Source: a virus
IMG/VR virus record: IMGVR_UViG_3300029319_007321
Location: 1 to 26,445 of that record
Length of the DNA: 26,445 nt
Direction: 5' to 3' (one strand)
A program made the position numbers and the translations under genes. Positions within the stretch are counted from its first letter, which is position 1; the number at the start of each line of letters is the position of its first letter. Below, piece by piece: positions 1 through 21,626 of this stretch. The notes under the pieces are model-generated. The model was not told where the DNA came from. It searched no databases and saw only the letters and a program-made list of their open reading frames with translations.

Positions 1-665
1 TTCTGGTCAGCACCTGAGGCATAGATGTCCAAACCAATGTTGGTCTGTGCTCCAGAAGTTCCACCAGTAAGATCAACGTCGATTCCTGTGTTCAGAACCG
101 TTCCAACCATGGTTGGTGAGTCTGAGTTGATGTCTACATCAAGGCCAACGTTCTGTCCTGTTTGTCCAGACGCAATGATTCCGGTAGCGTCGTAATCAAT
201 GTGAGCGCCAACAGTCGTGTGGTTCGTTGTGGCCGTAACATCTGTGTTTACGAAAAGAGTGCTGCCATCAAAGGTCAAATTGGCTTCACCGTTCAAAGCG
301 GAAGCGCCTGTTGCCGTAGCGATACGGTTATCTGAACCGTTAGTCATTGACACGGCACTTGCTGCACCCACAATTGAAGTGCCCGACGTAATCTGAACGT
401 CGTCGCCTGCGTCTGTAGTAAAGAACAGTTGATTAGGTGTGGCGTTTTTCACCCACAACTGACCGTATGCTGCGGTGTCCCCATCAGCGTTAGACTGCTC
501 CTTGAGGGTAACTGGCCCTTCTACCGTAAGCTTTGTTTTCGGTGAGGCCGTACCAATACCAACACGATCATTGGTCTCATCGACTACAACTGTAGTTCCA
601 TCGACCTCAAGATCAGTGAGGATCTGTGATCCTCCACTGCTGTTGAAAGGACTGTTAAAACCCAT
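1..665 (-). CDS. Tail fiber-like protein, N-terminal part (runs off left edge)
   Basis: An ATG at 665-663 preceded by a strong GGGGGA ribosome site opens a frame with no stop to the window edge, so at least 221 codons are present and the C-terminus is missing. Near residue 40 there is an RVGIGTASP...LTVEG motif, a signature common at the start of phage fiber proteins, followed by Gly/Ser/Thr/Asp-rich beta-type sequence. The last third has imperfect repeats of the type (N)xGLDVDI, TGIDVDL, IGLDIYASGAD, as expected of a stacked trimeric beta fiber. It lies 8 bases after the preceding gene and is the last gene seen in the transcription unit, where T7-like phages keep receptor-binding fibers. A C-terminal chaperone (S74-type) domain would be usual for such fibers but lies outside the window. 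The fiber role is inferred from composition, motif and position. Confidence 0.75.
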   Translation of the reverse strand, partial: MGFNSPFNSSGGSQILTDLEVDGTTVVVDETNDRVGIGTASPKTKLTVEGPVTLKEQSNADGDTAAYGQLWVKNATPNQLFFTTDAGDDVQITSGTSIVGAASAVSMTNGSDNRIATATGASALNGEANLTFDGSTLFVNTDVTATTNHTTVGAHIDYDATGIIASGQTGQNVGLDVDINSDSPTMVGTVLNTGIDVDLTGGTSGAQTNIGLDIYASGADQ

Positions 666-673
666 GCTTCCCC

Positions 674-1105
674 CTATCGGTTACCTGCTTTTGAATCAGC
701 CCAATGCAGTCTAGCTGTGGCTATCTCTGGGTTTCCTGTTGCATCATCAACGATGACCCAAAGGTAGCACGCCCCGCGTGTTGTCTGCGCAGTAGGCGCG
801 GTTACTACAGCATCCAGCGCGATTGAAACATGTCTAAGGTTTCCTGTTGAGCCAGATTGAAGTTTTTGACCAGTTGCCTCACCCGTAAGAGGATGATCGC
901 GACCACTGTCCCAAGTTAGATAACAAGAGACAGTGGTGGCGCTATTCGCGTTGGTAAGCGAAATATCAACGTGTGATAAATAGCATGCCTGCGGCATAGC
1001 CCTTGAGCGAGCATCAACAGCAGAGTCTTCGTGAAGAAGAAGACCGTTCCCGTAGGTGTCGGTAATTTCAGTTGTAGCGTTGTCGTTGCAAATGAAGCCC
1101 TGCAT
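674..1105 (-). CDS. Small beta-rich virion protein, function unknown (143 aa)
   Basis: The start at ATG 1105 is fixed by an AGGAGG ribosome site a few bases upstream. The protein is Thr/Ala-rich with alternating hydrophobic residues predicting beta strands, for example SATTVSCYLTWD and GACYLWVIVDD. There is no signal peptide, membrane segment or catalytic motif. It lies between another small beta protein and the fiber gene, with 29 bases upstream and 8 bases downstream, in the same late transcription unit. A fiber-base, fiber-adaptor or minor decoration role fits the context, but I do not recognise the family. Confidence 0.7.
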   Translation of the reverse strand: MQGFICNDNATTEITDTYGNGLLLHEDSAVDARSRAMPQACYLSHVDISLTNANSATTVSCYLTWDSGRDHPLTGEATGQKLQSGSTGNLRHVSIALDAVVTAPTAQTTRGACYLWVIVDDATGNPEIATARLHWADSKAGNR

Positions 1106-1134
1106 TCCGGCCTCCTACTTGGAAGGTGGAATGA

Positions 1135-1746
1135 TTAGATGGGGTTGACGATGTCTACTACGAAAGCTTCAGCCTGGGCAACCATTGATGCGTTGGTGGA
1201 TCCAAGCGTAACCGTGACGCTCAAGTAGTTGTCTACTGTTGTATCGACAGCAAAAGTTGCCAACGCACCACTTTCGTCGTGACTTAGAGCGACGGCAGCA
1301 GCCGTATCCAAAGCGACGGTTCCAAACATAACGGCGGTTCCACCAGACCCGGCAGTGCGGATTTGAACGACAGCATCACCGACACAAACAGCACCACTGT
1401 TGTCAAGATCAGTAGCAGCGGTTTCGATTCCCGAGTTGCTGCTTGCGGTGGTGTTTGAGCCAAATCGCAATCCAATCTGAGTTGTGTCAGAACCATTTCC
1501 TGATGGGCAATGCACATAGAACTTGGCTCGGATGGTTGAACCAGCAACAAGAGTGTTGGCTGGAATCGTGTACTCGGTAGTCTCGGTCTCGGTTGTTCCT
1601 TCGCCGTCACCGTTGATTACGGTGCCTGCGGCAACATCGGCGTTTGCTTGGCAAATGCCGTACATTTTTCCGCTAGATTTACCAACAGCAAGAGGAATAG
1701 AGTGAGTAAGCGAGCGTCCGCCCATAAGTTCTGGAATCTGGGACAT
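1135..1746 (-). CDS. Beta-rich virion structural protein (203 aa), function unknown
   Basis: ATG at 1746 follows a TAGGAGA ribosome site. The protein is Gly/Ala/Thr/Ser/Val-rich with few charged residues. It has repeated beta-strand patterns such as STIRAKFYVHCP, AVVQIRTAGSGG and YLSVTVTLG, and ends in AFVVDIVNPI. This composition is typical of jelly-roll or fiber-associated phage structural proteins and lacks enzyme motifs. It is the first gene after the giant ORF, behind a 66-base AT-rich gap (1747-1812) that could hold a promoter or processing site, although I cannot point to a convincing one. Its codons look more evenly C/T-ended than those of the giant gene, perhaps reflecting high expression. 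Specific role unknown. Confidence 0.72.
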   Translation of the reverse strand: MSQIPELMGGRSLTHSIPLAVGKSSGKMYGICQANADVAAGTVINGDGEGTTETETTEYTIPANTLVAGSTIRAKFYVHCPSGNGSDTTQIGLRFGSNTTASSNSGIETAATDLDNSGAVCVGDAVVQIRTAGSGGTAVMFGTVALDTAAAVALSHDESGALATFAVDTTVDNYLSVTVTLGSTNASMVAQAEAFVVDIVNPI

Positions 1747-1812
1747 GAAAGAATCTCCTAAGTGGGATGAGAAATCGAAAAAATAATAGCACGTTGCAAG
1801 CGGTGGTCCATA

Positions 1813-4800
1813 TCAATCATATTCTCTCGTGCTCAAGTTTTCACGAGACAGGGCCTGTTTAAGTTCACCAAGCCTCATCTTTGTGTCACGAGAGGTCTGC
1901 TCTGCAAGCGTTGGAATCAATGTTGGTTTGAAGCCAAGCCACCCAACAAACTCCTGAGCCTCTGTAAGTCCGGTGCGTGGACCCATAGTGTCGCCGGTTC
2001 CCATTTCTGGAACCTCCTCCAATACTCCAAGCTCATTTCCAAACGCTCGGAACGCTCGAGCACCACGAACAGCGCCCTCAACAACACCCATGTTAGCGCG
2101 ATCCATGTAGGTAATCGTGTCCATTGAACGGCCAGCGCCAGGAAACTGCAACAAGCTTCTCCAGATCCACCAGGCTTTTCCGTTCCTTGCATGCCACCAA
2201 CCGTTTTCAGACTCACCTGAAATCGCTGACTTGCTTGGGTCTCTGTGTGGTCGATATTGAATGTCAAACAAACCATGCACAAGAGATCCGCCAGTTAAGG
2301 CCAAATCCAACTCGACCAACCACTCAGGCACCTTGTTGTATTCGTTAAGCTCCTTGTCCCAGAAGATATCGGTGCCCGTCGCCATGACAAACAGTGATTG
2401 ATACCAAGGGGCAATGCGATTAGCCATGCCACGAATGGCTCCTTCGTCTGTAAACTTAGCAATGTCGTACATGTCGATGTAGAAGTTCAAGGCATCCATC
2501 ATCGGAAGCGGAGGCGTAATGAACATTACTTGGCTGTACTTGTGCGTGTTTATAACAGTGTTCTTGAAGAAGACAGGCAATCTTCCTTGTTGATAATCTT
2601 TCAGCACAATCTGAGCGTCATCTTCTAAGAACGCGGTTTGGATTCCACGAAGCATTCTCATTTGACCAAGGATTCTTTCTGGGTTTGTAAGCAAAGTGTC
2701 CCAGAACAAATCCATGTTTTTCCGCATGTAAGAGTAAAACATGACGGTTCGTCGAGCGTATGCCTTTTCAAACTTAGTAAGGGCAGCGTAGTCGTACCCA
2801 GTCTTGCGAGCCATAGCGGCGGCTGCGTCTGGAGACAACCCACGCTTGAGCCCATCAATAAATACAGACACTCGCCAATAGTTATCCAGCGCGGTGGCAG
2901 ATTCAATCAACGTTTTCTGCCAGTTCTTAGCCCACCGGCCAACACGCATTTTATTCCAAAAGCCAGGTTGAAACTCTTTCAAGTCGGTAGCAATGTCTTT
3001 CATTGTCTCCGCGTGAATAAAGCTTGATTTCAAACCATGAGCTTCAGCTAAGTTAGTCACTTGTTCAATGCTGTATACAGCGCCTGTTTTCCTGTTGATT
3101 ACAGGCGCAGCATTCGGTTGAAATCCACCATCTTTCCAAAGCCGAGCAACAACAGCCCCTGTTTGTTTTGGATTCAACATCATTCTGCCGGTAGCAATAG
3201 GACCAATGCCTTGCATTGCCTGGAATCCTGCGCCCATAAACACGCCTGTAAAGTACGCAGGGTTGGGCAAAATAATGCCAGTCGTTACACCCATTTTAAT
3301 CTTTGATTCTACAATAGGAAACAGTGTGAAAAGATTGTCTACCGCTTTGCCTGCATTAGCCTTCAACATGTTCACAACAGCAGGATTGCTAAACCCTGGT
3401 CCAAGAACATCAGTGTCTACTTCATAAGAAACAACGCTTCTTGAACCACCCGCACCTGTTGCTCGATCAATAGCCTCATCAATGGCTTTTTGAACAGCGT
3501 CGGGCATAAAGACTTCAGTCCCATCTGGCAAAAGTCTACGCTCAAAACCTCCTCTCGCTCGTTTGAAACCAAAGTTGTTTAGGATTTCCAAAGCTTTTGT
3601 GTAGGCTTCAAGGTCATGTACGTTGCCGTTGAAATCTGTAGGAGCGCCCATTCTTTTAGCTCGAGCAATCTCTGACATTGGCATCAAAGGCTTTTGAGGC
3701 GTGCCAGCAGTAGGCGCTTCTGGCGGTTCAGTAATCAGTTCCTTTTGTCGCCTAAACAAAGTAGAAGTCATGCGAAAAGAAACTTCTTGGTTCAAATAAA
3801 ACTCAATTCGTTTCAGATACAAACTTTTGTTTACTTTGGCGTATGACGCTTGTTTGTTTGCCCCCATGAAAAAATCATTAGCCAAATCTCTTACGTCTGA
3901 AGCAATCCCGTACTGAACCATCTTTTGAGTCAGTCCGCTAATAATCTCCTGCGCTCTCATGCCTGCGATCATTTGAGTAATAGCAGTTTTAGGGTCAGCA
4001 AGAGGTGGGCGCTTAGTCCGAGTTTCTGTTCCTACAACCTCTCCATACTTTCTCTGGAACACCTCATACATTTTGTCCCATTGTCCTCTATGGAACATTT
4101 GATAAAACTCGCCTTGAAGCCTTGTGTTTTGTGCAAACACACCAGACACCCACTCTTGACCACCACCCATGGCTTGAGCAATTTTCATCGACTGGTCACC
4201 AATCAAGCGTGATTGTCTTTCTAATCGCTCGTAAATGTAGCCAAGCGCTTCTTCGATTGCGTCAAAGTCTTGACGGGTCAGAAACTCTGACAGGTCAGGC
4301 TGTTTGCCTTCAATCTTGCTTTGCCTGTACTTTCTGAGTTTCTTTTCGTAGTTTTCTAAAGTGACTAAAGACCAAGCATCGTACTCATCCAAGCCAGGGA
4401 ATGTGTGATGACTTGCGTAAGGTCGCTCCATTACTGCTTGAAGATTCTTTCTTTCAGACAAAATAAAATCGATAAAAGGAACGTCTGCAAACGGTTCACC
4501 AAAAGGATCTGCAGTAGGCGCATATCCTTCATCCGTTAAAGTTCCGGTAAGCATAGCGTTTCTTTTAGCGGCTGCTGCTCCCTCCATTTCATCGGTGCCA
4601 ATCTTTTGCCGGAACTGCTGTAGCTGCAGCAACATGCCTTCTTGTGCCTTTACGTTGCCTTCAGCCGTTACGTCACCGCGTACACCCATTATGTACTCGA
4701 CAGAACTAATGTCTCTTTGAACACCGCTTTTACCAGTAATGGTTTTTACAGTTTCAATTTTTACTGGCTTGTTAACCAGGGTGTCTTTCAACATTAGAAA

Positions 4801-7800
4801 CAACTGTTGTACCGAAAGGTCTTTGTTTCCTTTGTAAGCGTCAGCAGCAGCCCTTCTCATTTCTGGACCAACAGATCCAAGCTCACGCAAGGTTGATTCT
4901 ATAATCCCTCTTTGAAATGGACCTACATCTGCAAGAGTGTTGACCTCAACAAACATTTCCCGAAACCTGTTGACCATGTTTCTAATAGCCCGACTGTGAT
5001 CCCCAGCGTTCACAGACATTTGCTTTAGAGAGTTCCAGGCAGCAACAGCAAGCGTAGGAGATATAGCTTCAGAATAGTGCGTCTTGACAGAGTTAGGCCC
5101 AGCCTCAATATCAAGGAGGGCTTCTCTAATTAGATTCCAATGTTTCTCGGGAATGCTTCTTAGCGAAACGTCTTCGGACAGCAGAGAATACGGAACAATG
5201 TTTGCTAATGGTTCATTCGACAAAGACCGCAAGAACACGCGCATACTTGATGCTTGTTCGTCTGAAAGAACAACATGACCCTTTTGAGAGAAGTAATCTG
5301 GATCACCACCTAAGACAGAATCAAGCCTTGATTTCATGCCTCGCTGTATAGTCTTGACCCTCTTCAAAGGAACAATTGACCGATACGTCAAGGGGAACAT
5401 CTTTTCAGCCCCAGAGGTAATCCGGGCATACTCTCCAGAAATGTACCCAGCGGCTCTTGCGAAAGCTTGAACCACATCTATATCTGTAGAATCATTTGTG
5501 ATTCTCAGTGCGTTTCTTACGGTTGGAGTGTCGAGAGGAATCCTAAAAAACTCATTCTTTTTGTTTTGAGCGGCAACCATGCCTTCTTCAAGCCGCTTCG
5601 TAATGTCTTCAGGCTCTGCAATTCGTACCTTCCTAAAGTTCCTTAAAACTTTTCCGGTAAGCTCCGTAGCCATGGGACGCACATTGAGGTCTGCTGCCAA
5701 CCAAGTATCAAACCATGTTCGAATCTTGGGGTTGGCAATAATCTGCCGGTCTGGCGTAAACCTAAGCCAATACCCTTGTAGATTCAGATAGAGTTGATCG
5801 TACAGCCCTCTCAACGGTCCAGGGGCTTTTCCAGTTTCAATGTATGTTTTGAATGAACTAATAAGGCTGTCTTCGCCTTCTCTGGTAAGTCTCGGGTGTC
5901 TACCATAAGTCTGAGCTTCTTTAATAAGCTGCTTGAAATCTCTACCACTTAGGAACTGACGGACGAGAACTCCTTCATTTCTAAACAGTTGATCAATGTC
6001 TCCCTCAACAAGCATGCGATACAAAGCATCGCCCTGATACGAGTACATCACGTCTCGCTTCGCGTGCTTTTCGCCTTCTAAAACAATCTTTTTTCTTTTA
6101 CGCGCTCTTCCTGTGGCGATCTCATCTTCAAGAGCAATGCGTTGGCTTACAATCTTAAACTGACTTCTTGGTGAAGGAGACGGTGCGGTTTCGGATGCCA
6201 GCATCCTGGTGTTGTTTGTTAAGCCGTCGAACAACCGCCCTTCAGCGCCGCCAGAAATCATGTAATCAACAGCGTCATCAAACATCTTGGTGCCGGGAAT
6301 GGCTCCGTTTTGTTGAGCAATGCTCGCGCTGACCCTTCTTGCTACATCTGGATCCATAGCAGCAATAGTAGACACCCAATCAGGAACCCTTGCGGCAGTC
6401 AGTTGGTTAACGCTCATGTCAGAGTTCAGGCTGTCTAACCTTGATTCTATTGTGTCATAAGGACCAAGAGCACCTTTCATGTCCTCAAAGAACTCATCTC
6501 GAGGTCTAACACCCACAAGGCTTGAAGTCTCTTCAGCGGCTTGACGGCTAAGTCTATCAACAAGGTCAATAATCTCTGGAGGAAACTCTACATTTCGAGT
6601 AGTTCTTGCAGACTCAGTCTTGCCCATTACTTGGCTAAATAAAGCCGACATCCTACGAATAACTCTTCGCAGAATTCCAATTTCAGAATCTGTAAATGAA
6701 GCGTGTCTTTGAACGTTTCCGCTTATCCAATAATCTGAGACAGTATCAGCAAGCCACTCTCCAAATGCGAGTTCTTTGTCGTAGTCTCTTTTAAACTGTT
6801 CTCTTCGCCTCCACTTAGTAAAGCCCGCGTCTCTTTCTCGAGCATACGCTGTTCTAAGTTTTCTAAGCTCATCTGCGGAAAGAACATCTAAGTGAAGCAC
6901 ATGAGTAAGCTCATGAACTAATGTGTGAACCAAACCAACTCTAAAGTACTCATGGTTTCTGACGGACAAATCAAGCTTGTCTACAAACTGATCAATTCTC
7001 TTAGAAGAAGGTCCTTCGCCATATCTACTTTGCAATCTAACTTTCAAGGTTTGAATGAGATCTAAATCAGTAATGCCACTACCTAAAGCTTGCGCTTCTC
7101 TGCGTGTAAGCTCTGACACTACTGGACCAATTGCATCTACAAAGTAGTTGGTGTCTGAATAAAGTTTAGAATTAAATTTTACCGATTCTCCATTCGTTCC
7201 TAAGTTTTTCCATCCAGCTTCTTTAGAAAAAAACCTTTCAACAGCCAAGCTGTAAAGATCTTCAGGCTCAAGACGAGTAAGGTCTATGCCTTTGTATTGT
7301 TTTGCGTCCATCGCGCGTTTTCCAAGCGCGTACAAATTTACATACCGATTTCGTATTCCTGCTTTGGTATTAGATTTTGGTAGTGTTGCTGACCCAAGAA
7401 GCCTTGAAAAAGCTCCACCGACATATGGAAAAAGACGTAGCTTCCGAACAGAAAAAGATTTGTCTGGAAGAATCTCGATAAAGGATCTTCCAAGTTTCGC
7501 AGTCAAATCATCTATGCTCATCTTGTTGACTACGTTTTCATACTCCGACAAAAACTTCTTTTTGTTAGCTGAAAATGTGGTTGGAACCTCTGCAGACGGA
7601 GGAGTCACATCAGGGTCTGTTGCGGCTTCAGCAGCTTGCTTTTGTAGCCTTGCTAATTCTCTTGGTTTGATTTTGAATGTAGCAAAAGCACCTTTGCCTT
7701 CTTTTTGAAGCTTGAGTTTGGACGATTCTTTAGCGGTAAAGGTCAAACGTTTTTTAAGACGACCGAGCTTATCAACAACGTCTTGCCCGTCTATTTTTCT

Positions 7801-10800
7801 GTAGTTGAAAAAATCAGATGGAAGAGTATCAACAAACTCAAACTGTAAAGAAGGATCTGAATCGAGTTGTTTTTTAAACTCAACCAAAGCTTCGCTTACC
7901 AGGCTTGTGTACATATCTTTTACGTCATCAAGAGTGACTCCGTACTTCTTCCTTGCAAGAACACCAATCTGAAACTCCATTCTGGCAGGAAGTGATTTGA
8001 ACGCTGGTTTCACGACACTATACAAGGTCATGTATGGTTGATTGTCACCCTTACTTGCATGTGCAACAGGGTTCATGTTGCGACCAATAAAAGGCCTCGC
8101 CATTGTTGGAAGCACAGGGCTGGTGACCCCGTAAGCATTGGAGTGATTGTATACAGTTACTCCGGTCTGAGCGGGAGGAGTCAGCACAGATTCGATGTCT
8201 GAGGATCTCCAGTATCCACCATTAGCAAGACTTGGAACTTCTACAAAAGTCCAATCTTTCGTAGACGGAGCGCTGGTGTCGAAAGGACCTAATGGGTCTC
8301 CAGGGTCTACAAAGTAATCAGGAGGAACATCTGCAGGCTTTTCTGTTTCGAAAGGCTCAGGAAGGGGATCATCTGGATCAATAGGCCGGGGTCCAGCGGG
8401 TTCCGCTGTAGGTGGGGCAGAGTCAGGTCCTGGGTCTTTTGGTTTTTTAGCCTTTGACTTTTCAATCAACAAAGACCCAAAGAACTCGATTTCAGATTTA
8501 AAACGACTAGCTGGGTTGATGGCTTCTAAATATGCCTGTAGTTCCAGGTAAGGCATGTAAGAGTGAACTTTCTCAACATCGTCTCCGTTTTTCTCTAAAG
8601 CATCGACTAGTCGGTTCTTGAACTCTTTGTACTCATCAGAAGCTCTAAGAACTTGAATGTCTGGTGAGCCTTGATTCATAAGACGCTCAGTAGCGTTTGC
8701 ATGAATAAGCTTTGCTCGAATGGTTCTCGCATTCAGTATTGTTCTTGCCGCAGTTGGATCAATGCCTGCAGCACTAAGAACAGAGTCAACGCCTGCCCTC
8801 ATCGAAGTAGGAATCTGCTTGTAGATGTCCTCTCCCCTGTCCGCAGCAAGCCTGACTTGTTGCTCTACAAGGTGGTTGAGAACCTGGTACATGTCCCCCT
8901 TGGCCGCTCTTGGCACTGCATCTAAAGCGTCATCTACACTTTGACCTGCCTTCACAAGAGGAATGACATAATCTAAAACCCCTTGTTCGCTGATTCCAAT
9001 CGAACGATAAGCTTCTGGATCTGCAACCTTGCCAGCCTGAAGGTCTTCAAGACCCTTGAGGGTTTTGTTTCCTCCAAGAGCCTCTCGAACATTGATGACG
9101 CCACGGTTTACATTCAAATCTACGTTGTTTTTGAATTGGTAAAAACCAGGAGAAATCGCCGCAATAATCGCTTTGCTTCTGTATGGAGTGCCTTTGAACT
9201 GTCTTGCTGCAGCAGCGCCCCTCAACCCTCCGCGCACAGGCATTCCTACCCCAGCAAAAATAGGTCGTTCCCAGGCAACAAGAGTATCTGCAAGGACACC
9301 CGTCGTAGCCCACAACCGATAGGTTGATGATTGCCGATCAACCCCCCTCGCCAACATTTCATCAGTAATGTGCCTGGTAAGACCAACCTCACCAGTGGCT
9401 ACGTTGCCTAAAACTCTAGCGAGAAACCCGGTGTCAGGATCTCGGATGCCAAGGCCGTACCTGAAGTCTCGAGACGCAGGAGTCAACGGCAAATCAAACG
9501 GCAGCCGCATTTCGTTGTATAGCTCAGGAATAGCAGACGCTACACGGAACAACTTGCCAGGAGTGTTTTCAACGTATCGAATCTGACCGTTAGAATCGAC
9601 CTCTTGTTTCAGCATAAGCTCCGCAAAGCCGGTAGCGACATCTTCGGTTGTGTCCCCTCCTGTAGCCCTCATTGCTTCTACGGTTTCGCCAGCACCAATA
9701 ATCACCCCATCAATGAAAGAATCAATGCTTGGAATCGCACCATTTTGATCATTGCTTGCAATAATCTCGGGTACGTTTTCAAGAATCTGACCAATAGGCA
9801 AAGACTCTAACAAAGACTGCAGGTTTTTTTCGTTTAGGGTTTGTTGACGCCCAAGCTGGGGGTAGTAAACCGCATCTGGAGAAGGATTGAATGCTCTGTC
9901 GTTTGCTTGAGCAATGAAGTACTCAAAGGTAAACCGAGGACTGCTTGAGTCTCCCTTGTCTGGGTTTTCTTTGGCATACTGTAGAGCAGCCTCAAGATCC
10001 AAATGGTCCCTGTATTTGGCAGAAGAAGGCAAATCATTCCACGAAACGTTTCTAACCATTTGTAGAATGTCAGGGCGTAGTCTTTCTCTAAGTTCTTCTT
10101 CTGTGGCCCCTGCTCGTTTTTCGGCTTTATATGCTGTCACGATTTGAGACCAAGATTCAGATGGTCTAGACGCAGCCAGCATATCTCTCATTCGTTCTGC
10201 GTCTTCCTCATTGTTTGCAAGAGCAGGCACCCAAACAGAATCAGAAAGCCCCATAAGAGTTTGTGTTCTGCTTGAAAGGTTTACTAATCCTGCAGGGACA
10301 GCAAAAAAGTAGCCGTCATCATTAGCGTCTTGCCGAAACAAAGGCGTTGGCCTAAAAAACTCAGAGGCATCTACTTTGCCCCACAACTTTCCAGCGCCAT
10401 ACCCAATTGCCCCACCAATGAAAGCACCAACGGTCATACCAACAGGATTAAGACCACCGGCTCTTACACCGACCCTTGCTCCTGCGACGGCTGATCTTAA
10501 CCCACCAGCGGTTCGCCCCAGTGTTCCAGCGCGTGGCAACAAGTATCCAAGGTTTTTGGTAGCAACAGCCGTTCCACCCACCGCTCCAGCAGTAGTAAAA
10601 AACGCAAGCTCTTTTGCAGTAGCTTGATCATCAAACGTCATTCCAGCGCGAGTCGCTTCTTCCACAGACATTGGTCTGCCGTAGTTCCAAACCGCAGACG
10701 TAGCAGATCCAAACCCTTCATTGTCAATGATGTCTTGGATTTCTTTCTGTACGTCGCGCCTCATCTGAAAACGTTGTTCATACCCAGGGGTGTCCGCGCC

Positions 10801-11448
10801 CACAGGAACATCGATTACTCTTCTGCGAAAAGCCCTTCCAACACCGTCTACAATCCCAGCGCCCATGGTCATCTCATCAGGCCACTGAGACGGATTGGTT
10901 TTTTCTAAAAGCTCTTGAAGCTCTTCTTCGCTTTTACCTTCATCAATAGCATTGTAGATATCAATGACTGGATTCTCTGAATGCAGCCCAAACCTAAGCT
11001 GTTGTGGGGCTTGTTCATAGAATCGTTTGACTGTGTCTAATGTTGGTCTTTCTGGAAACTCTGGAGCGAGATGACTTGGCGTAAATTGCTTTTGATAGAT
11101 GAACCGATCCGCATCGTCCTGATACCACTGATCGTCATGTCCAGGCCGCGACAACCTCATTTCATCAATTCGAGCGCTTCTTAGCTCAGACTCAAGGACG
11201 GCAAATTCATCTGCGGAAACCGCTTCCGTCGCTGGAGAATAATATTGTTCTGCTTCTTCAACAGCCGCTACATCTGCCTCTGGGTCACTGACAAACTGAT
11301 CACCAGGCACAACAAAGCCAGGTTCAGGATCATCATAAATCCCTTCCATCACTTCGTAATCAGGAGCCTGAAAGTAATCATATGCCCTTTCTCGAGGCAC
11401 GGTTTCAAACCCTTCGATGAGGTCAATGTCGTCCTGTTCTTCAGCCAA
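1813..11448 (-). CDS. Giant virion-associated multidomain protein with zincin metallopeptidase motif (3211 aa)
   Basis: A single uninterrupted 3211-codon frame starting at TTG 11448 (an in-frame TGA lies two codons upstream). In order: acidic N-terminus (about 1-60); Gly/Ala-rich, membrane-like stretch (about 280-360); Pro-rich linker (about 995-1060); HELTH at 1512-1516 with Glu in ELAFGEWLAD (E1559/E1564), a zincin zinc site; a segment at about 1855-1910 with YIETGKAP that resembles the tail of zincin modules in large phage polyvalent proteins but has no HExxH of its own; Gly-rich hydrophobic stretch (about 2690-2730); and a C-terminal region with DNYWR (about 2853) and GYDYAALTKFEKAYARR (about 2876-2895), which I recall from other giant phage proteins. 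It occupies the position of T7 gp16, the last internal virion protein before the fibers, so packaging in the head and injection with DNA is likely. No lytic transglycosylase motif was found. It could instead be an antirestriction-type (DarB-like) factor. Confidence 0.85.
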   Translation of the reverse strand: MAEEQDDIDLIEGFETVPRERAYDYFQAPDYEVMEGIYDDPEPGFVVPGDQFVSDPEADVAAVEEAEQYYSPATEAVSADEFAVLESELRSARIDEMRLSRPGHDDQWYQDDADRFIYQKQFTPSHLAPEFPERPTLDTVKRFYEQAPQQLRFGLHSENPVIDIYNAIDEGKSEEELQELLEKTNPSQWPDEMTMGAGIVDGVGRAFRRRVIDVPVGADTPGYEQRFQMRRDVQKEIQDIIDNEGFGSATSAVWNYGRPMSVEEATRAGMTFDDQATAKELAFFTTAGAVGGTAVATKNLGYLLPRAGTLGRTAGGLRSAVAGARVGVRAGGLNPVGMTVGAFIGGAIGYGAGKLWGKVDASEFFRPTPLFRQDANDDGYFFAVPAGLVNLSSRTQTLMGLSDSVWVPALANNEEDAERMRDMLAASRPSESWSQIVTAYKAEKRAGATEEELRERLRPDILQMVRNVSWNDLPSSAKYRDHLDLEAALQYAKENPDKGDSSSPRFTFEYFIAQANDRAFNPSPDAVYYPQLGRQQTLNEKNLQSLLESLPIGQILENVPEIIASNDQNGAIPSIDSFIDGVIIGAGETVEAMRATGGDTTEDVATGFAELMLKQEVDSNGQIRYVENTPGKLFRVASAIPELYNEMRLPFDLPLTPASRDFRYGLGIRDPDTGFLARVLGNVATGEVGLTRHITDEMLARGVDRQSSTYRLWATTGVLADTLVAWERPIFAGVGMPVRGGLRGAAAARQFKGTPYRSKAIIAAISPGFYQFKNNVDLNVNRGVINVREALGGNKTLKGLEDLQAGKVADPEAYRSIGISEQGVLDYVIPLVKAGQSVDDALDAVPRAAKGDMYQVLNHLVEQQVRLAADRGEDIYKQIPTSMRAGVDSVLSAAGIDPTAARTILNARTIRAKLIHANATERLMNQGSPDIQVLRASDEYKEFKNRLVDALEKNGDDVEKVHSYMPYLELQAYLEAINPASRFKSEIEFFGSLLIEKSKAKKPKDPGPDSAPPTAEPAGPRPIDPDDPLPEPFETEKPADVPPDYFVDPGDPLGPFDTSAPSTKDWTFVEVPSLANGGYWRSSDIESVLTPPAQTGVTVYNHSNAYGVTSPVLPTMARPFIGRNMNPVAHASKGDNQPYMTLYSVVKPAFKSLPARMEFQIGVLARKKYGVTLDDVKDMYTSLVSEALVEFKKQLDSDPSLQFEFVDTLPSDFFNYRKIDGQDVVDKLGRLKKRLTFTAKESSKLKLQKEGKGAFATFKIKPRELARLQKQAAEAATDPDVTPPSAEVPTTFSANKKKFLSEYENVVNKMSIDDLTAKLGRSFIEILPDKSFSVRKLRLFPYVGGAFSRLLGSATLPKSNTKAGIRNRYVNLYALGKRAMDAKQYKGIDLTRLEPEDLYSLAVERFFSKEAGWKNLGTNGESVKFNSKLYSDTNYFVDAIGPVVSELTRREAQALGSGITDLDLIQTLKVRLQSRYGEGPSSKRIDQFVDKLDLSVRNHEYFRVGLVHTLVHELTHVLHLDVLSADELRKLRTAYARERDAGFTKWRRREQFKRDYDKELAFGEWLADTVSDYWISGNVQRHASFTDSEIGILRRVIRRMSALFSQVMGKTESARTTRNVEFPPEIIDLVDRLSRQAAEETSSLVGVRPRDEFFEDMKGALGPYDTIESRLDSLNSDMSVNQLTAARVPDWVSTIAAMDPDVARRVSASIAQQNGAIPGTKMFDDAVDYMISGGAEGRLFDGLTNNTRMLASETAPSPSPRSQFKIVSQRIALEDEIATGRARKRKKIVLEGEKHAKRDVMYSYQGDALYRMLVEGDIDQLFRNEGVLVRQFLSGRDFKQLIKEAQTYGRHPRLTREGEDSLISSFKTYIETGKAPGPLRGLYDQLYLNLQGYWLRFTPDRQIIANPKIRTWFDTWLAADLNVRPMATELTGKVLRNFRKVRIAEPEDITKRLEEGMVAAQNKKNEFFRIPLDTPTVRNALRITNDSTDIDVVQAFARAAGYISGEYARITSGAEKMFPLTYRSIVPLKRVKTIQRGMKSRLDSVLGGDPDYFSQKGHVVLSDEQASSMRVFLRSLSNEPLANIVPYSLLSEDVSLRSIPEKHWNLIREALLDIEAGPNSVKTHYSEAISPTLAVAAWNSLKQMSVNAGDHSRAIRNMVNRFREMFVEVNTLADVGPFQRGIIESTLRELGSVGPEMRRAAADAYKGNKDLSVQQLFLMLKDTLVNKPVKIETVKTITGKSGVQRDISSVEYIMGVRGDVTAEGNVKAQEGMLLQLQQFRQKIGTDEMEGAAAAKRNAMLTGTLTDEGYAPTADPFGEPFADVPFIDFILSERKNLQAVMERPYASHHTFPGLDEYDAWSLVTLENYEKKLRKYRQSKIEGKQPDLSEFLTRQDFDAIEEALGYIYERLERQSRLIGDQSMKIAQAMGGGQEWVSGVFAQNTRLQGEFYQMFHRGQWDKMYEVFQRKYGEVVGTETRTKRPPLADPKTAITQMIAGMRAQEIISGLTQKMVQYGIASDVRDLANDFFMGANKQASYAKVNKSLYLKRIEFYLNQEVSFRMTSTLFRRQKELITEPPEAPTAGTPQKPLMPMSEIARAKRMGAPTDFNGNVHDLEAYTKALEILNNFGFKRARGGFERRLLPDGTEVFMPDAVQKAIDEAIDRATGAGGSRSVVSYEVDTDVLGPGFSNPAVVNMLKANAGKAVDNLFTLFPIVESKIKMGVTTGIILPNPAYFTGVFMGAGFQAMQGIGPIATGRMMLNPKQTGAVVARLWKDGGFQPNAAPVINRKTGAVYSIEQVTNLAEAHGLKSSFIHAETMKDIATDLKEFQPGFWNKMRVGRWAKNWQKTLIESATALDNYWRVSVFIDGLKRGLSPDAAAAMARKTGYDYAALTKFEKAYARRTVMFYSYMRKNMDLFWDTLLTNPERILGQMRMLRGIQTAFLEDDAQIVLKDYQQGRLPVFFKNTVINTHKYSQVMFITPPLPMMDALNFYIDMYDIAKFTDEGAIRGMANRIAPWYQSLFVMATGTDIFWDKELNEYNKVPEWLVELDLALTGGSLVHGLFDIQYRPHRDPSKSAISGESENGWWHARNGKAWWIWRSLLQFPGAGRSMDTITYMDRANMGVVEGAVRGARAFRAFGNELGVLEEVPEMGTGDTMGPRTGLTEAQEFVGWLGFKPTLIPTLAEQTSRDTKMRLGELKQALSRENLSTREYD

Positions 11449-11459: not shown

Positions 11460-13442
11460 CTAGTATTCTAAAGCTCGGGTACCACCGTATTTATACTCAG
11501 AGGCAATGATGTCTCCAAAGTGCTGCAACGTGTACGAGTCCCAAAGTAACGCATCGATTTGAGCCCTATGAGCCCTTTGATTGTATGGGCTCTGGCCTTG
11601 CATGTTTTGTCCCAACAAAACTGAAGCTTCTCTTCCTGCTTGAGAAATTCTACTAAGCGAGGTTTGTAGTTGCAATATCTCTGCGGGAGAAAGCTTATTT
11701 GTAATCGATGTCACTTGTTCCTTGAAGGGCATAAACCAACCTTCAACAAGAGACGAGGGTCCTTGCCCAAAGAGATTCCGGTCAACAACTCCTTGCTCAT
11801 TACGCAAAGGCCTTTCACCAGAAGAACCCCTTCTGGTTAGTATTTCGTGAGTAGGCTTATCTTTTGGAGTAGATTTGTTTTCTTCTTGGATTTGAAGTGC
11901 GCTTATGTACTCCCGCCTTGATGCGTCGTTGAACTCAGGTTGTGTTGTTTGGAAAATATCGACCATTTTTTGCAGGGCTTCTTGTACTTTTCCTTCGGAC
12001 TGGTCTGCTTCAATAAAGAAGCTGTTTGTGTAAACAGACCTTACTCCATCACGCCTCATCCCACCTCTTGCTGGAATCCCAATGTAAGAGTAGACAACAT
12101 TAGCAGGAGCGCCCTGAAGACCATGTCTTACACCCCCAAAGCCTTGTGAACCACCATCTATGTGGCGAAAGTGTCCGCCTCTTCTGTTATAGTCATAGCC
12201 AAGTCCTTCAATTCGGCGCTGCCATGCACGACCGGATGGGTTTTGACCTGCTTGACCAACCCTTGCTTGGTAGTAACCTGATGGTACATCCCTTGGTGAT
12301 CCTTGATAAGCCCGAACGAAAATCAATGGAGCAAAGCCTAAGTCTTCTACAGTTTCAATAGGCAAAGCGTTTGCGGCTCTGCCTTCCTCAAAGGAAACAC
12401 CCCTTTGTCTCATTGAGTTTTTAACGAAACCAAAGTTTTTTCCTGAACTAAAACTTTCGGGTCGAGATGTAGGATCAAATAGAAACTCAACCAACTCTTG
12501 CATTCTGCCATAGGTGTTTTCTTGAATACTGCTCGTTATAAAATTGTTCTTTAATCTATCCAACTCACCTGGAGATCTAATATCAGAACTGCCGCCTCTT
12601 GTAGCAGCGACTCCCTGAGAAAACGCTTTCCTAAGAGGGGATACAGCTTGGAGTTGATATCCAGTGTAGTCAAACATCTCGACAAAATCCTGGCCTGGAT
12701 TTACAGATGCTTCAATCTGTTTGTTCATATTAAAAAACAAGTCTCTATCAAGCCTTTGATAGCGCTCTGCAGCCAAAGCAGAAACGGGAGTGTTCTGAAA
12801 ACCAGCCCCACCAGCGAGGGTCGCTGTCACCCCCTCTAACATTCCTCGACCAGCCCGCCTTAGTGCTCCGTATGGATGACCTGGAAGTGGAACTTCATTT
12901 CCTTGATCGTCTACTACATCCGAATCAGTGTTGTACCCATAGGAATTCCAAAACGGCATAACGGTTTGTAACCAAATTCTATGACCGAAGTTTTTCTCCG
13001 ACTCAAGATCGCTGGTGTAGGTGTTTACTTCAAGCGGATTAGGGTTTGCCGTTTTGCTATCAATACTAACTGTGTTGTTAGAGGCGTTGACGATTGCGTC
13101 TGCTAAAGGCTCTAAATCTTCCTGAGATACTCCAGTTCTTGTTCCAGGGAATCCTTGCTCGCTAAACACAGGAGAAAGCTCCGCGCCAATCCCAGTCTCA
13201 ACAGCAGGCGGAGTCTCAGGCTCAGGCTCAGGCGCTTCGACAACAGGCGGAGTCTCAGGCTCAGGCGTTTCGACAACAGGCGGGGTCTCAGGCGTAGGCG
13301 GAGGCTCAGGCGTTGCGACAACAGGCGTAGGCGCAGGCGTAGGCGCAGGTTGTCTTGGCGGAGAAGGTGGCGCAGGCTCAAGAACCAGCGCGTCCATCAA
13401 AGCTTTCAAGTTTGCTCTTGTTTCTGTGTTTTCTTCTGACAT
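11460..13442 (-). CDS. Internal virion-type protein with proline-rich arm (660 aa)
   Basis: The frame is open from TTG 13514, but that start lies inside the preceding gene and has no ribosome site. I prefer ATG 13442 (MSEENTETR), two bases after the preceding stop, although its AGGA is 13 bases away and so weak. A short helical N-terminus (1-25) is followed by a Pro/Glu/Thr-rich arm (about 26-88) built of PETPPVVE-like units, then a globular region rich in aromatic and Arg/Gly residues with no family I recognise (for example FVRAYQGSP, HFRHIDGG, VVYSYIGIPARGGMRR), and a helical C-terminus rich in Gln/Ser/Leu. It ends 11 bases before the giant gene and is probably translated with it. By position it should be an ejected or internal virion protein that may partner the giant. 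No enzyme motif is evident. Confidence 0.75.
   Translation of the reverse strand: MSEENTETRANLKALMDALVLEPAPPSPPRQPAPTPAPTPVVATPEPPPTPETPPVVETPEPETPPVVEAPEPEPETPPAVETGIGAELSPVFSEQGFPGTRTGVSQEDLEPLADAIVNASNNTVSIDSKTANPNPLEVNTYTSDLESEKNFGHRIWLQTVMPFWNSYGYNTDSDVVDDQGNEVPLPGHPYGALRRAGRGMLEGVTATLAGGAGFQNTPVSALAAERYQRLDRDLFFNMNKQIEASVNPGQDFVEMFDYTGYQLQAVSPLRKAFSQGVAATRGGSSDIRSPGELDRLKNNFITSSIQENTYGRMQELVEFLFDPTSRPESFSSGKNFGFVKNSMRQRGVSFEEGRAANALPIETVEDLGFAPLIFVRAYQGSPRDVPSGYYQARVGQAGQNPSGRAWQRRIEGLGYDYNRRGGHFRHIDGGSQGFGGVRHGLQGAPANVVYSYIGIPARGGMRRDGVRSVYTNSFFIEADQSEGKVQEALQKMVDIFQTTQPEFNDASRREYISALQIQEENKSTPKDKPTHEILTRRGSSGERPLRNEQGVVDRNLFGQGPSSLVEGWFMPFKEQVTSITNKLSPAEILQLQTSLSRISQAGREASVLLGQNMQGQSPYNQRAHRAQIDALLWDSYTLQHFGDIIASEYKYGGTRALEY
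13190..13380 (-). repeat. Imperfect coding repeat encoding a Pro/Glu/Thr arm
   Basis: The plus strand shows GGCGG(A/G)GTCTCAGGC units beginning at 13207, 13246 and 13279 (39- and 33-base steps), with related GGCGTAGGC and GGCGCAGGT units at 13289-13350. Read on the minus strand they encode PETPPVVETPE-like and PTPAPTP-like peptides in frame. The array is a low-complexity spacer that could easily change length by slippage. It gives strand-shadow ORFs rich in Arg or Leu that are not genes. Confidence 0.8.
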
Positions 13443-13443
13443 T

Positions 13444-15342
13444 TTAAGAACCAAGTCCTGCCATTTGTCTTTCCGACTCGACAATCCAGTTTTGAATGGA
13501 ATCATTGAGTTCAACTAAACGTGAGTTGAGAGTATCAAAGTTGTCAGTATCTAAGGCAAGATCAACTTGATTGACAATGGTTCTTCCCGCATCACCTGCA
13601 AGCTTTGGATCCATTAGGTCAATATCGTTCCTCAACGAAACAACCTGTTGCTTGTATGCCTCTCTGTCGCCAGATGTGTACACACTGGAAAGGTTGTTGA
13701 TTTGATCATCGTATTCATACGGCAGCCAAGAAAGCTCAGACAACGTCTCTTGATTGCCAGCATCATCGAGCCTGTCTGCAAGAGCATTCGAAAACGTAGC
13801 AAAGGTTTCAGCATCATCTGGCTCATCGAATGTAATCTCTCTAAGAGAGGTCCCTAAAACCTGAGCCAGAGTGAAGCCTCTCGCGGTTTGAACTTGATCC
13901 AATTGAGTTCTTACAAAAGGATTGTCTACACTGCCTGAGAGGCTCAAAAGCCTGTCTCTAAGGTTTACCAAGTCCTCGGCTGTTTCCGCCCTTTTAGAAT
14001 CCAAAGCGACAGACCGAAGCTCGTTTTTAAAAAAGTCGAGAACATTACCGCCAAGACGGTTGGCTTCTTGCTCTCCAAGGCCCCTTCGCCTTGCGGCCAC
14101 AGCTTCTCGTCTCCACCCATCAAACACCACGCTCTCAACCGCACCAGGCTCTAACTGGCCAGTAAACGCCTCATCTAAGATTCTGCGACCTGCAGCAGGG
14201 CTTTGTTGATAGACCTTGGCAATCTCATCAATCAACCTAAGCTCAGATGTTGGTTCTTCTAAAGAAGAAATGTAAGGGTCGAATGCTTGCCCTGACAAAA
14301 TAGCAGAACGTGCTGCAGACTCTTGCCTTGAGGCAATCTGCGATCTTCTTAAGGACTTTCGCAGGCTGTCGATTCTGGTGTCGTAAACACTCACGTCCAC
14401 CGGCTTGTCCAAACCAGCGCTCAAAAGCATAGCGTCCAAATCAATCGACTGGGCTGCACCAACTCCTCCTCGAGTTGCTCGCCTCTGTCGTCGCTCGATG
14501 TCTGCGTCAGTCACCGGCCCATAGTTCTGTCGATACTCTGTCATCAGGTTTAGGCGGAGAACAGGCTTTGCGCCCACTGCATTTTCAGTAGTAAGGTCTC
14601 CAGCAGTAACGAAGCTTCCGTCTCTCAGTTGGAAAACAGGGTTTCTAAAGTCAGGCCGACCAGTGGCTTGTGCCGCAATCATGTTTGCGCCGACAATATC
14701 CCCTCTTTCAATCGCAGCTTGCTGAAGCTGTGCCGCAAGAGCCTCTCTTCTTTGAGCGTCTCCTCGACCTGTTGTTTTCGAAAGATCCTCAAAAACCGGA
14801 ATGTACTTTCTGCTTTGATCAGTCCACATGTTTTGAGCACCGGCTGGGTCGTTCAAGTACTTTTGGGTCCAACCATCAAGATTAAGCTCAGGGCGAAATT
14901 TACTACCAGTTCTTACTTCTTCAATAATCGCATTGGACTGAGGGTCTCGACGCATCGCGGCCTGATTGGCCCGCTGAATCTTCATAGATTCTGTTTCGAT
15001 TCCGCCTCTTGCTCGTATTCGAGCCTGTGCAATATCTGCCTGATTATTCTGTAAGTTCCTTGCGTTTTGACCAAGCTCGCTAAGGTAGTCTTTTACAATC
15101 TCTGCTCGATCTGAACGGTCCTGTTCAATCAAGGATGCACGGTTTGCCAAAGCCTCAGTCAAAGACTCTTGCAGCGTCTTGTGCATGATTGCGCGTGTCC
15201 TTGGATCCAGCGCCTGCAGTGCTGCTTTTCTCTTAAACCTGTACTCTTCCTGAGCGTTTGCCCAGAAAGAAGCGATGAAGCGCTCGGCCAAGCTGACATC
15301 AGGAAAAGCAATAGGACTAAAATATGGTGGGACTACGGCCAT
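13444..15342 (-). CDS. Helical internal virion-type protein (632 aa)
   Basis: ATG 15342 is preceded by GAGGT at good spacing. The protein is almost entirely predicted helix, rich in Ala, Arg, Asp, Gln and Leu, with no cysteine motif, signal peptide or enzyme signature. The first 110 residues (FKRKAALQAL, LTEALANRASL, YLSELGQNARNLQNNQADI) look like extended coiled coil. The remainder has repeated acidic-aliphatic helices such as LVNLRDRLLSLSG and LVELNDSIQNWI. Length, composition and location between the 125/809-residue proteins and the giant match what is expected of a T7 gp15-like ejection protein, but I see no sequence motif that proves it. A 50-base gap separates it from the gene upstream, and it ends two bases before the preferred start of the 660-residue gene. 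Confidence 0.75.
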   Translation of the reverse strand: MAVVPPYFSPIAFPDVSLAERFIASFWANAQEEYRFKRKAALQALDPRTRAIMHKTLQESLTEALANRASLIEQDRSDRAEIVKDYLSELGQNARNLQNNQADIAQARIRARGGIETESMKIQRANQAAMRRDPQSNAIIEEVRTGSKFRPELNLDGWTQKYLNDPAGAQNMWTDQSRKYIPVFEDLSKTTGRGDAQRREALAAQLQQAAIERGDIVGANMIAAQATGRPDFRNPVFQLRDGSFVTAGDLTTENAVGAKPVLRLNLMTEYRQNYGPVTDADIERRQRRATRGGVGAAQSIDLDAMLLSAGLDKPVDVSVYDTRIDSLRKSLRRSQIASRQESAARSAILSGQAFDPYISSLEEPTSELRLIDEIAKVYQQSPAAGRRILDEAFTGQLEPGAVESVVFDGWRREAVAARRRGLGEQEANRLGGNVLDFFKNELRSVALDSKRAETAEDLVNLRDRLLSLSGSVDNPFVRTQLDQVQTARGFTLAQVLGTSLREITFDEPDDAETFATFSNALADRLDDAGNQETLSELSWLPYEYDDQINNLSSVYTSGDREAYKQQVVSLRNDIDLMDPKLAGDAGRTIVNQVDLALDTDNFDTLNSRLVELNDSIQNWIVESERQMAGLGS

Positions 15343-16165: not shown

Positions 16166-18595
16166 TCAGCGCCTTTGTGCTTGGTTCATGTATTGAATCG
16201 CCTGGTCGAGCGCTTGCTGTTTAAGGGCTGATTGTTCTGGTTTTGAGTAAAGGTTCATAATGCCAGTCAAAGCAAGACCCATAACCCTGTTGAACTCATT
16301 GATGTTTTCATTGGAAAGGCCGCCTCTCAAATAAAGCGAGTAAGCCTCCATAGAGTTTTGATAAGACAAAGGATTACCCATATTGTCAAACGCCTTGCCG
16401 ATATCCTCCATAGGAGGTGCATTCTCCAATGAGCCAAGAGGTCTTGGTGCAGGAGCCGCCTGAGGAGCAGGCGCAGGAGCAGGCGCTGGTGCCGCAGCCG
16501 GTTGAGAAGGCCGTGCTCTATTTAACTCTGCCTGAGCAGCAGCCTGTTGTTCTGCTGTAGCGTTTGGTCCCATGCCAGCCGCAATAATGTCAGGGTTGAT
16601 TGGGGGTTCTCCACCTGTAGCCTCAATGCCTGCAGCAACTTGTTGTTCAGTTGCCCCTGGAAGCATGGCCGCAACCACCGTATCCACCACACTGTTGTCA
16701 TCAGCAGGAGCAGCAGCAAGGACGTTTTGACCGGGCGTAAGGCCAATATCAAACCCTTGTTGCGCTTGCGCTCCAGGCTGGCGCAAAGCCGGATCTTGAT
16801 CCATAGGGGGTAGGGGTGGGCCACCAGTGCGAGTGGGCCTCATAGCGTCTCGCTGCTCGTCAGTCATCCTCGTCATCGTCTGCTGGGCCGGAGGTTGCGC
16901 CTGCTGTTGAGAAGCCTGTTGAACCTTAGTAAGCGCTTGCTGGCGGATCGTAGGATCCAGTTGTTGCAAACTATAAGATCGAATGCCGGGAGAAAAGTCT
17001 TCTTGAGGATTGCCAAGATGAAAGCGGCTGGTCTCGCTATTCAAGTACACAACTTGATCACCTAAACTCAGCTTTACAAACTCTCCTCGAGGCCCAACCG
17101 AAGACAAGTCTGGTGCGCTTGAGTAGTGGTCTGGTTGACGGGCTGCTAACTCTTGCCCCGTAGCCGCCCCAAGAAACCCGGGTTGAGTCGCGGGCTCTGC
17201 GGAAACTCGACCTTTCGCTCTTTCAAGCTGTCGGTAGTTTTCAGCTTGCTCTGCGTTCAAGCCAAGATCAAAGATTTCTTTTTCAATTTCAGCCGAAGTT
17301 CCCGTAGCTGGAGGAACTACTGCAGATACTGCGGGATCGGTTTGAATTGGGGTGGCGGTTTGAGTAGAAGCAGGCGTTCCCGGTTGGACAACATTCTTGA
17401 CAGCATCAATAACCCCCTGCCCCTCTGCGCTAGCTGCTTTTCCCTGATCCGTTTGAGGCGCTTGATACGCACCAATCTCATTTGTAATGGCTTGACCAAT
17501 ACTGTCGGTTGCGGAATAGCTACGATTAATAGCGTCTTGCCGGTTTGATGGAGCACCAATGATTGTGACTGTTCCATCAGGATCTTGACGATATCGGTAT
17601 CCTCCAGCGCCATCAACTTCTCGAGGCTGTGGAGCAGCAGGAGCAGCAGGAGCAGCAGGAGTAGCAGGAGCAGCACCCTCAGCAGCAGGCGCAGCAGCAG
17701 GCGTAGCACCCTCAGCAGCAGGCGCAGCAGCAGGCGTAGCACCCTCAGCAACAGACGCAGCAGCACCCTCAGCAGGACGATCAGCACGAGCACCAAAGGC
17801 AGACTGCAATTCGTTAATCAGCTTGTTTCGTTCTTCATCGGAAACTCCGCTAAATCGATCAAGAAGACTTGATACCTCCGCGTCCGACAAATCAGGAAAA
17901 GCGTTCTTGAGTTCCTTAGCAACCTTAGGGAGGTCCTTTGTTCCTTCATATGCTTTTGCAGCGCCAAGAAAAGAAGCAAGGCCAGCGCCAGCCTTAGCAA
18001 GACTTCCAATAAGTTTTTCTTTAGATTGTGCGAAGAACTGTGTAATCGAATCGTACTTTTTGAGGTCTTCCGCAACCTTTCGTCGTCGGGATTCTTCTGC
18101 AAGCGCCAAAGCTTTTACTTCTGCATCTCTTCCGGCTTGTTCTGCAGCACTTTGAATAGCTTTTGTTTGTTTGAGATTCCCTCCACCTTTGGCCGCCAAA
18201 GCTCCCAAGCCAGCCCGAGATGCCGCCGTTTCTGCACCGCCAATGACTCCTTTGGATCGCCGGAGTGTTTCTTTGAATTCTTCCGCCCCTAATGTTCCTG
18301 AGCGTTGTTGTGCTTGAATTCGCGCCCTTTCACTGGCCGCTTCTTTTCTCGTGTCAGACAGAGCGTATGCTCCACCTTTGATGAGAAGATCGATGCCGCC
18401 CAAAATAGCAGCTTTTTTAGCAACGTCTTTTTTCTTTTCAGCCGCCTGTTGCTTCATTAGAGCGGCAACGTTTGGATCTCTCGAGGCAAGGATCTGGCTT
18501 GTTAAAGAGTCGGTTTGAAGGTAGTCGGTGTCATACTCGTCACCAAGCAAAAACTCATCGTCACTATTAATACCTGTTCTACGTCTACGAGACAT
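16166..18595 (-). CDS. Ala/Pro-rich internal virion-type protein (809 aa)
   Basis: ATG 18595 follows an AGGATGAG ribosome site and lies three bases after the previous stop. The N-terminus is basic (MSRRRRTG), then acidic. Residues 62-80 (AAILGGIDLLIKGGAYAL) and about 194-215 (KLIGSLAKAGAGLASFLGAAKA) are amphipathic or membrane-like. Residues 90-180 are helical with a GGAETAASRAGLGALAAKGGG motif that I associate with ejection-type virion proteins of podovirus-like phages. Residues 273-322 are an EGATPAAAPAA repeat linker, a second Ala/Pro linker lies near 698-718, and the C-terminus is helical and Gln-rich. Placed directly after the gp14-like gene, it is the best candidate for a gp15-class ejection protein, but the long low-complexity linkers are atypical. 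No enzymatic motif was found. Confidence 0.75.
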   Translation of the reverse strand: MSRRRRTGINSDDEFLLGDEYDTDYLQTDSLTSQILASRDPNVAALMKQQAAEKKKDVAKKAAILGGIDLLIKGGAYALSDTRKEAASERARIQAQQRSGTLGAEEFKETLRRSKGVIGGAETAASRAGLGALAAKGGGNLKQTKAIQSAAEQAGRDAEVKALALAEESRRRKVAEDLKKYDSITQFFAQSKEKLIGSLAKAGAGLASFLGAAKAYEGTKDLPKVAKELKNAFPDLSDAEVSSLLDRFSGVSDEERNKLINELQSAFGARADRPAEGAAASVAEGATPAAAPAAEGATPAAAPAAEGAAPATPAAPAAPAAPQPREVDGAGGYRYRQDPDGTVTIIGAPSNRQDAINRSYSATDSIGQAITNEIGAYQAPQTDQGKAASAEGQGVIDAVKNVVQPGTPASTQTATPIQTDPAVSAVVPPATGTSAEIEKEIFDLGLNAEQAENYRQLERAKGRVSAEPATQPGFLGAATGQELAARQPDHYSSAPDLSSVGPRGEFVKLSLGDQVVYLNSETSRFHLGNPQEDFSPGIRSYSLQQLDPTIRQQALTKVQQASQQQAQPPAQQTMTRMTDEQRDAMRPTRTGGPPLPPMDQDPALRQPGAQAQQGFDIGLTPGQNVLAAAPADDNSVVDTVVAAMLPGATEQQVAAGIEATGGEPPINPDIIAAGMGPNATAEQQAAAQAELNRARPSQPAAAPAPAPAPAPQAAPAPRPLGSLENAPPMEDIGKAFDNMGNPLSYQNSMEAYSLYLRGGLSNENINEFNRVMGLALTGIMNLYSKPEQSALKQQALDQAIQYMNQAQRR
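17676..17765 (-). repeat. 33-bp tandem repeat encoding AEGATPAAAPA linker
   Basis: The unit beginning CCCTCAGCAGCAGGCG on the plus strand starts at 17676, 17709 and 17742. The first two copies are 33 bases and nearly identical, the third is shortened to 24 bases, and another CCCTCAGCAGG begins at 17766. Further GCAGCAGGA triplet-rich sequence extends to about 17635. All of it is in frame and codes an Ala/Pro spacer between helical domains. High copy identity suggests recent slippage-driven expansion. Confidence 0.85.
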
Positions 18596-19843: not shown

Positions 19844-19846
19844 TTT

Positions 19847-21625: not shown

Positions 21626-21626
21626 A

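Follow-up and report, generated by a model that had tools for sequence, protein, structure and literature searches.

The passage of very large proteins through the narrow tail of short-tailed phages is an unsolved problem, as is the question why many of these proteins carry metallopeptidase (MPTase) domains. The virion RNA polymerase (vRNAP) of N4 has been described as beads on a string, moved through a ~35 Å channel together with two other ejection proteins (PMC12633501), and the ejectosome packed by phage phiM1 consists of three kinds of protein (PMC11440229). The polyvalent proteins are very large single chains that combine disparate activities, carry LPD38 and an HExxH domain, and are encoded among virion genes; LPD38 (Pfam PF18857) has been reported only from phage-type proteins of this class, and maturation-type cutting has been proposed for those of the N4 vRNAP type (Iyer et al. 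2017, PMC5512222).

The locus analysed here lies on a 26,445-base linear IMG/VR virus fragment, the whole of which is called the window below. A preliminary description had pointed to a single unbroken frame of 3211 residues, naming no strand. The frame was borne out on the minus strand (11448..1813) and is open on that strand only, the plus strand there being stop-rich, and GGGGTGAGG precedes its TTG start. The encoded giant protein consists of two cores, kept among relatives, and a variable cassette between them:

1813..11448, minus strand: giant ORF of 3211 aa, TTG start, stop codon included
8449..11151, minus strand: N-core, residues ~100-1000, kept in long and compact relatives
10375..10596, minus strand: Gly/Ala-rich stretch, residues ~285-358, largely missing in compact relatives
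6037..8448, minus strand: variable cassette, residues ~1001-1804 (804 aa in the window)
8239..8448, minus strand: Pro-rich linker, residues ~1001-1070, left border of the cassette
1816..6036, minus strand: C-core, residues ~1805-3211, delimited by alignment of relatives

The Pro-rich linker recorded earlier is real, with 16 Pro within residues 1001-1050, and the right border of the cassette is a low-complexity sequence. The stretch formerly called Gly/Ala membrane-like is plainly rich in Gly and Ala, but its membrane-like character is weak because no 19-residue segment has a Kyte-Doolittle mean >1.4. Profile scans and tblastn gave no significant match of the giant protein in Pfam, PHROGs or cultured phages, and nothing credible was found in PDB with the N-core or the C-core profile.

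At E 10 the Pfam LPD38 model hit neither the window's protein nor any of six relatives; the same model finds true members. Because of this lack of hits, the C-core was compared, profile to profile, with nine Pfam-LPD38 proteins gathered from bacterial genomes, where LPD38 proteins are mostly open frames of 2.2-4.8 kaa. The two profiles aligned over 330 columns and kept register across the PNPAY, DNYxRVSxF and FYSYxRKN regions:

2239..3312, minus strand: divergent LPD38-type module, residues ~2713-3070 (hhalign 94.7%, E 6e-8)

All seven controls (the N-core, the middle of the C-core, two zincin alignments, two neighbours and the reversed C-terminal alignment) gave <=0.4%. Judged by this profile homology, the C-core contains a divergent module of the LPD38 type. 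AlphaFold modelled the C-core with low confidence and the PDB fold search was empty; a fold search in a viral library led to proteins named 'Large polyvalent protein associated domain', which are taken as supporting evidence only because the global TM-scores were low. The C-termini of gp129 of Cellulophaga phage phi19:3 and gp123 of phi18:3, a type to which the fold search had pointed, belong, like that of the window's giant, to the LPD38 superfamily (92.8% in the profile-profile comparison). Compared directly, they do not match the window's C-core significantly; the bridge between the two is LPD38. In gp129 there is no HExxH. According to its annotation, gp123, a giant of the phi19:3 type, was detected in phi18:3 virions by MS/MS. 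In Pseudoalteromonas phage vB_Pun_Y3 (L071 624-13998) a protein of 3421 aa with the annotation DdrB-like ParB stands beside an 'ADP-ribosyltransferase' with a C-terminus of the phi19:3/LPD38 type.

The genes on the minus strand are ordered as a head/tail module, structural-looking ORFs, a 632-aa protein, a 684-aa protein, the giant, two small ORFs and a tail-fibre-like ORF (E 7.5e-6). The two proteins before the giant have counterparts in its closest relative, L001 (record G001, 72 kb):

13444..15342, minus strand: 632-aa neighbour, candidate ejection protein by position (626-aa counterpart in L001, 34% identical)
11460..13514, minus strand: 684-aa neighbour, candidate ejection protein by position (682-aa counterpart in L001)

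PDB profile searches with these two neighbours gave no match. The head/tail module of the window encodes a head scaffolding/decoration-like protein (E 4.5e-9) and a 435-aa protein, a 148-aa open-ended ORF has weak major-head-protein matches (E 0.014), and an 809-aa protein is a homologue of an 'internal virion protein' (E 1e-20). Counterparts of nearly all these genes occur in the same order in G001, where TerL and a capsid protein are encoded upstream and the 626-aa and 682-aa proteins precede a giant of 3491 aa.

Several side observations were made on these gene blocks. The 809-aa protein (window 16166-18595, minus strand) contains Ala/Pro-rich tracts of the AAPAAEGATPA kind, and its N-terminal part matches L001 at 34%. 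Three successive proteins of similar length (284, 302 and 302 aa) are encoded at window 18989-21664, minus strand, in an order kept in L001 and in the record of L011. ORFs of 1068 aa (G001 9-3215, L029; no PHROG match) and 1027 aa (G003 49449-52532, L035) lie just upstream of packaging genes. In Roseobacter phage CRP-7, which had the best E-value among the terminase matches listed, a similar position is occupied by three large, non-homologous proteins.

Size, a mostly helical prediction and the place among tail genes would also suit a normal structural protein of the tail, or one of tape-measure type, that does not enter the host. This is very improbable in view of the LPD38 homology of the C-core and the enzyme-like and wall-binding domains of relatives; moreover, the PHROGs scan gave no significant tape-measure match and the tail-tube-like and fibre neighbours are of the short-tailed type. 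The location between the head/tail genes and the tail-fibre-like ORF counts for an ejection protein, and so, indirectly, does the annotated MS/MS detection of phi18:3 gp123 in virions. The reading preferred here, with a probability of about 60%, is that the giant is a virion-packaged ejection protein of the polyvalent type, with a replaceable cassette and a zincin-type metallopeptidase as accessory cargo. In this the preliminary proposal of a packaged and injected protein is followed; as also proposed there, it may cleave a host or virion protein.

Placement before the tail fibres, described earlier as the T7 gp16 position, is shared with gp37 of the phiKMV group (LUZ19; PDB 9sfn_G), with which the cores were compared; however, gp37 has 1337 aa against 3211 aa in the window and the cores are not detectably homologous to it. 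The vRNAPs of Schitoviridae (PMC12633501) resemble the window's giant in length (~3.2-3.5 kaa), in a middle-to-C HExxH and in two smaller ejection proteins nearby. Neither core matched a schitovirus vRNAP in direct comparison, and searches for an RNA polymerase domain in the giant gave no Pfam hit and no PDB profile hit. The likeness to DarB put forward in the preliminary description was not sustained: DarB-type antirestriction proteins have methylase and helicase domains, and a Pfam scan of the whole giant finds neither of them, nor a lysozyme domain. The LPD38 polyvalent proteins and the N4-type giant ejection proteins are the fitting comparison, rather than DarB. The window's giant differs from the former in that its LPD38 is too diverged for the Pfam model, its N-core is unrecognised and a single enzymatic domain can be recognised in it.

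About 30 related IMG/VR records share the cores of the giant protein. With the conserved C-terminus as the query, the number of loci rose in successive scans from 12 to 23 and on to 31. Many of these loci belong to the same records, several L identifiers being overlapping fetches of one record (e.g. L001, L013 and L047). The relatives of both cores are, without exception, uncultured contigs, and a search of bacterial and archaeal genomes with the C-core found no relative. N-core homology is weak or partial in L016, L027 and L054. The length of the cassette varies widely: 25-36 aa in eight compact relatives, 207 in L014, 863-878 in L002, L005 and L010, 1086 in L001, 1301 in L027, 1413-1549 in L003, L015 and L026, and 1632 in L016. 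Compact proteins (2.3 kaa, against 3.2-4.0 kaa for the long forms) join N-core and C-core in one chain with no HExxH between them. In the C-core tree the window is the sister of L001 (100/100), and a fully supported branch parts cassette-bearing from compact rows; the tree is silent on the ancestral state of the cassette. Since the compact and the two-zincin forms are confined to few clades, they represent few evolutionary events. The cassette of L027 and L054 (alignment A10) is of a third, zincin-free type and is 49% identical between these two phages.

The preliminary description had left the cargo domains unrecognised. The cargo region is now delimited as the cassette, and the sole recognisable enzymatic domain in the window's protein is the putative zincin (zincin 1) within it:

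6529..6957, minus strand: zincin-type region, residues 1498-1640, from conservation and model
6901..6915, minus strand: HELTH, residues 1512-1516, from the sequence
6757..6759, minus strand: E1564 (in EWLAD), proposed third zinc ligand, invariant in alignment A7

Both HELTH and the downstream ELAFGEWLAD, which contains E1559 and E1564, stand in the translation where they had been reported. The chance expectation of an HExxH in a protein of the giant's composition is 0.02. HExxH, E1564, W1565, A1567 and D1568 are conserved at aligned columns in the window and seven zincin-bearing relatives at 26-56% identity to it (L002, L005 and L010 being mutually >90% identical). Either E1559 or E1564 had been suggested as a ligand beside H1512 and H1516; since E1559 is not conserved, E1564 is the likely third ligand, and the predicted active set is H1512, E1513, H1516 and E1564.

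The AlphaFold model of the cassette was poor (mean pLDDT 41), with ten-residue blocks near 1510-1590 reaching 63-84. It places HELTH and EWLAD on two separate helices, as described for MPTases (PMC5512222), and is too weak to confirm the zinc site. A fold search with this model returned no zincin and no PDB match, the zincin-1 profile alone gave no significant Pfam or PDB peptidase match and no solved zincin, and a scan with the zincin region as the query returned only previously found relatives. A catalytically dead region, or one that is not a zincin at all and fills the cassette in a structural role, would agree with the missing peptidase match and with a fold confirmed neither by AlphaFold nor by fold search. 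This explanation is nevertheless improbable, as the two histidines and the glutamate of HExxH and the downstream E1564 are invariant amid diverging surroundings, and the separate predicted helices also speak against it. HE.GH in L016, L025, L027 and L054 was not accepted as a zincin; it lies at a place in the C-core at which the motif is missing from other relatives.

The zincin could also be a maturation protease that cuts the giant during assembly, or in the head, for packing and release. Processing is the MPTase role favoured in the polyvalent-protein paper (PMC5512222), and the Pro-rich linker and the low-complexity right border would offer accessible sites. The compact relatives, with 25-36 aa and no HExxH between the cores, make this role rather unlikely, although cassette-bearing forms could still be cut. 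A cut between the cores is therefore no fixed requirement of the family, given that both are fused, with no zincin, in the compact chains. Presence or absence of the cassette while both cores stay fused counts for accessory cargo; the putative zincin, an accessory module, is missing from many relatives. In the best reading the locus represents a new podoviral family of giant ejection proteins of the polyvalent type, in which the zincin is not an obligatory maturation protease.

A second zincin is present farther on in L001, L003, L015 and L026. The closest relative thus carries this shared domain and the window does not, and the C-core of L001 holds, in addition, an inserted LysM. The corresponding sites in the window are:

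6400..6486, minus strand: site of the second zincin of L001, absent in the window, residues ~1655-1683
3739..3756, minus strand: site of the LysM inserted in the C-core of L001 (LysM 40.8 bits), residues ~2565-2570

The second-zincin profile matched residues 409-558 of LUZ19 gp37 (HEAVH423; E 2e-19, hhalign 97.3%) and the virion RNA polymerase of a Litunavirus (HELLH2091; E 7e-11, hhalign 92.7%), so that the vRNAP HExxH domain is homologous to a domain which the window lacks. Because the second zincin matches both gp37 and vRNAP while the cores match neither, one metallopeptidase domain is common to three otherwise dissimilar types of giant ejection protein. As a side observation, the HExxH stretches of gp37 (L046; E 7.5e-15) and of phiM1 gp48 near residue 384 (E 0.24) match the second zincin, and the two proteins are annotated as endolysin or exotransglycosylase. 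The endolysin/exotransglycosidase-like label in phiM1 (PMC11440229) may need a second look, since the HExxH stretch overlaps that region.

L016, which shares the window's C-core, has a GHKL ATPase at residues 371-494 of its 5'-open giant frame (Pfam 28.4 bits, cut-off 25; HtpG E 3e-4), in the N-terminal part and not demonstrably within the middle cassette. With regard to the disparate activities typical of polyvalent proteins, the putative zincin alone is recognisable in the window; among relatives there are two zincins and LysM in L001 and GHKL ATPase in L016. GHKL and LysM in relatives support modularity; the view of the cassette as a cargo bay rests mainly on the middle region.

The following course is proposed for the packaging, ejection, catalysis and target of the giant. 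Packaging and ejection would fall to the N-core and the LPD38-containing C-core, and the cassette between them, with the Pro-rich linker on its left, would carry one zincin-type metallopeptidase. The chain may thread through the tail with the two smaller neighbouring ejection proteins, like the ~3,500-aa vRNAP of N4, and refold in the envelope or cytoplasm; by position only, the 632-aa and 684-aa proteins and the giant would form a trio comparable to those of N4 and phiM1. As accessory cargo, the zincin would most likely have a host protein as its substrate or, once inside, release a domain from the giant.

The domains shared among these phages tie together LPD38 polyvalent proteins, N4 RNA polymerases and phiKMV ejection proteins, and the natural pairs with and without the cassette (2.3 kaa vs 3.2-4.0 kaa) bear directly on the question of zincin self-processing. 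It is suggested, tentatively, that the giant is a natural protein-delivery scaffold in which the two ejection cores stay constant and the cargo bay between them is loaded, emptied or swapped; the bay might then hold, with the same reserve, one zincin, two zincins, other contents or nothing. If this is true, the injected enzyme would be exchangeable while the delivery machine stays unchanged.
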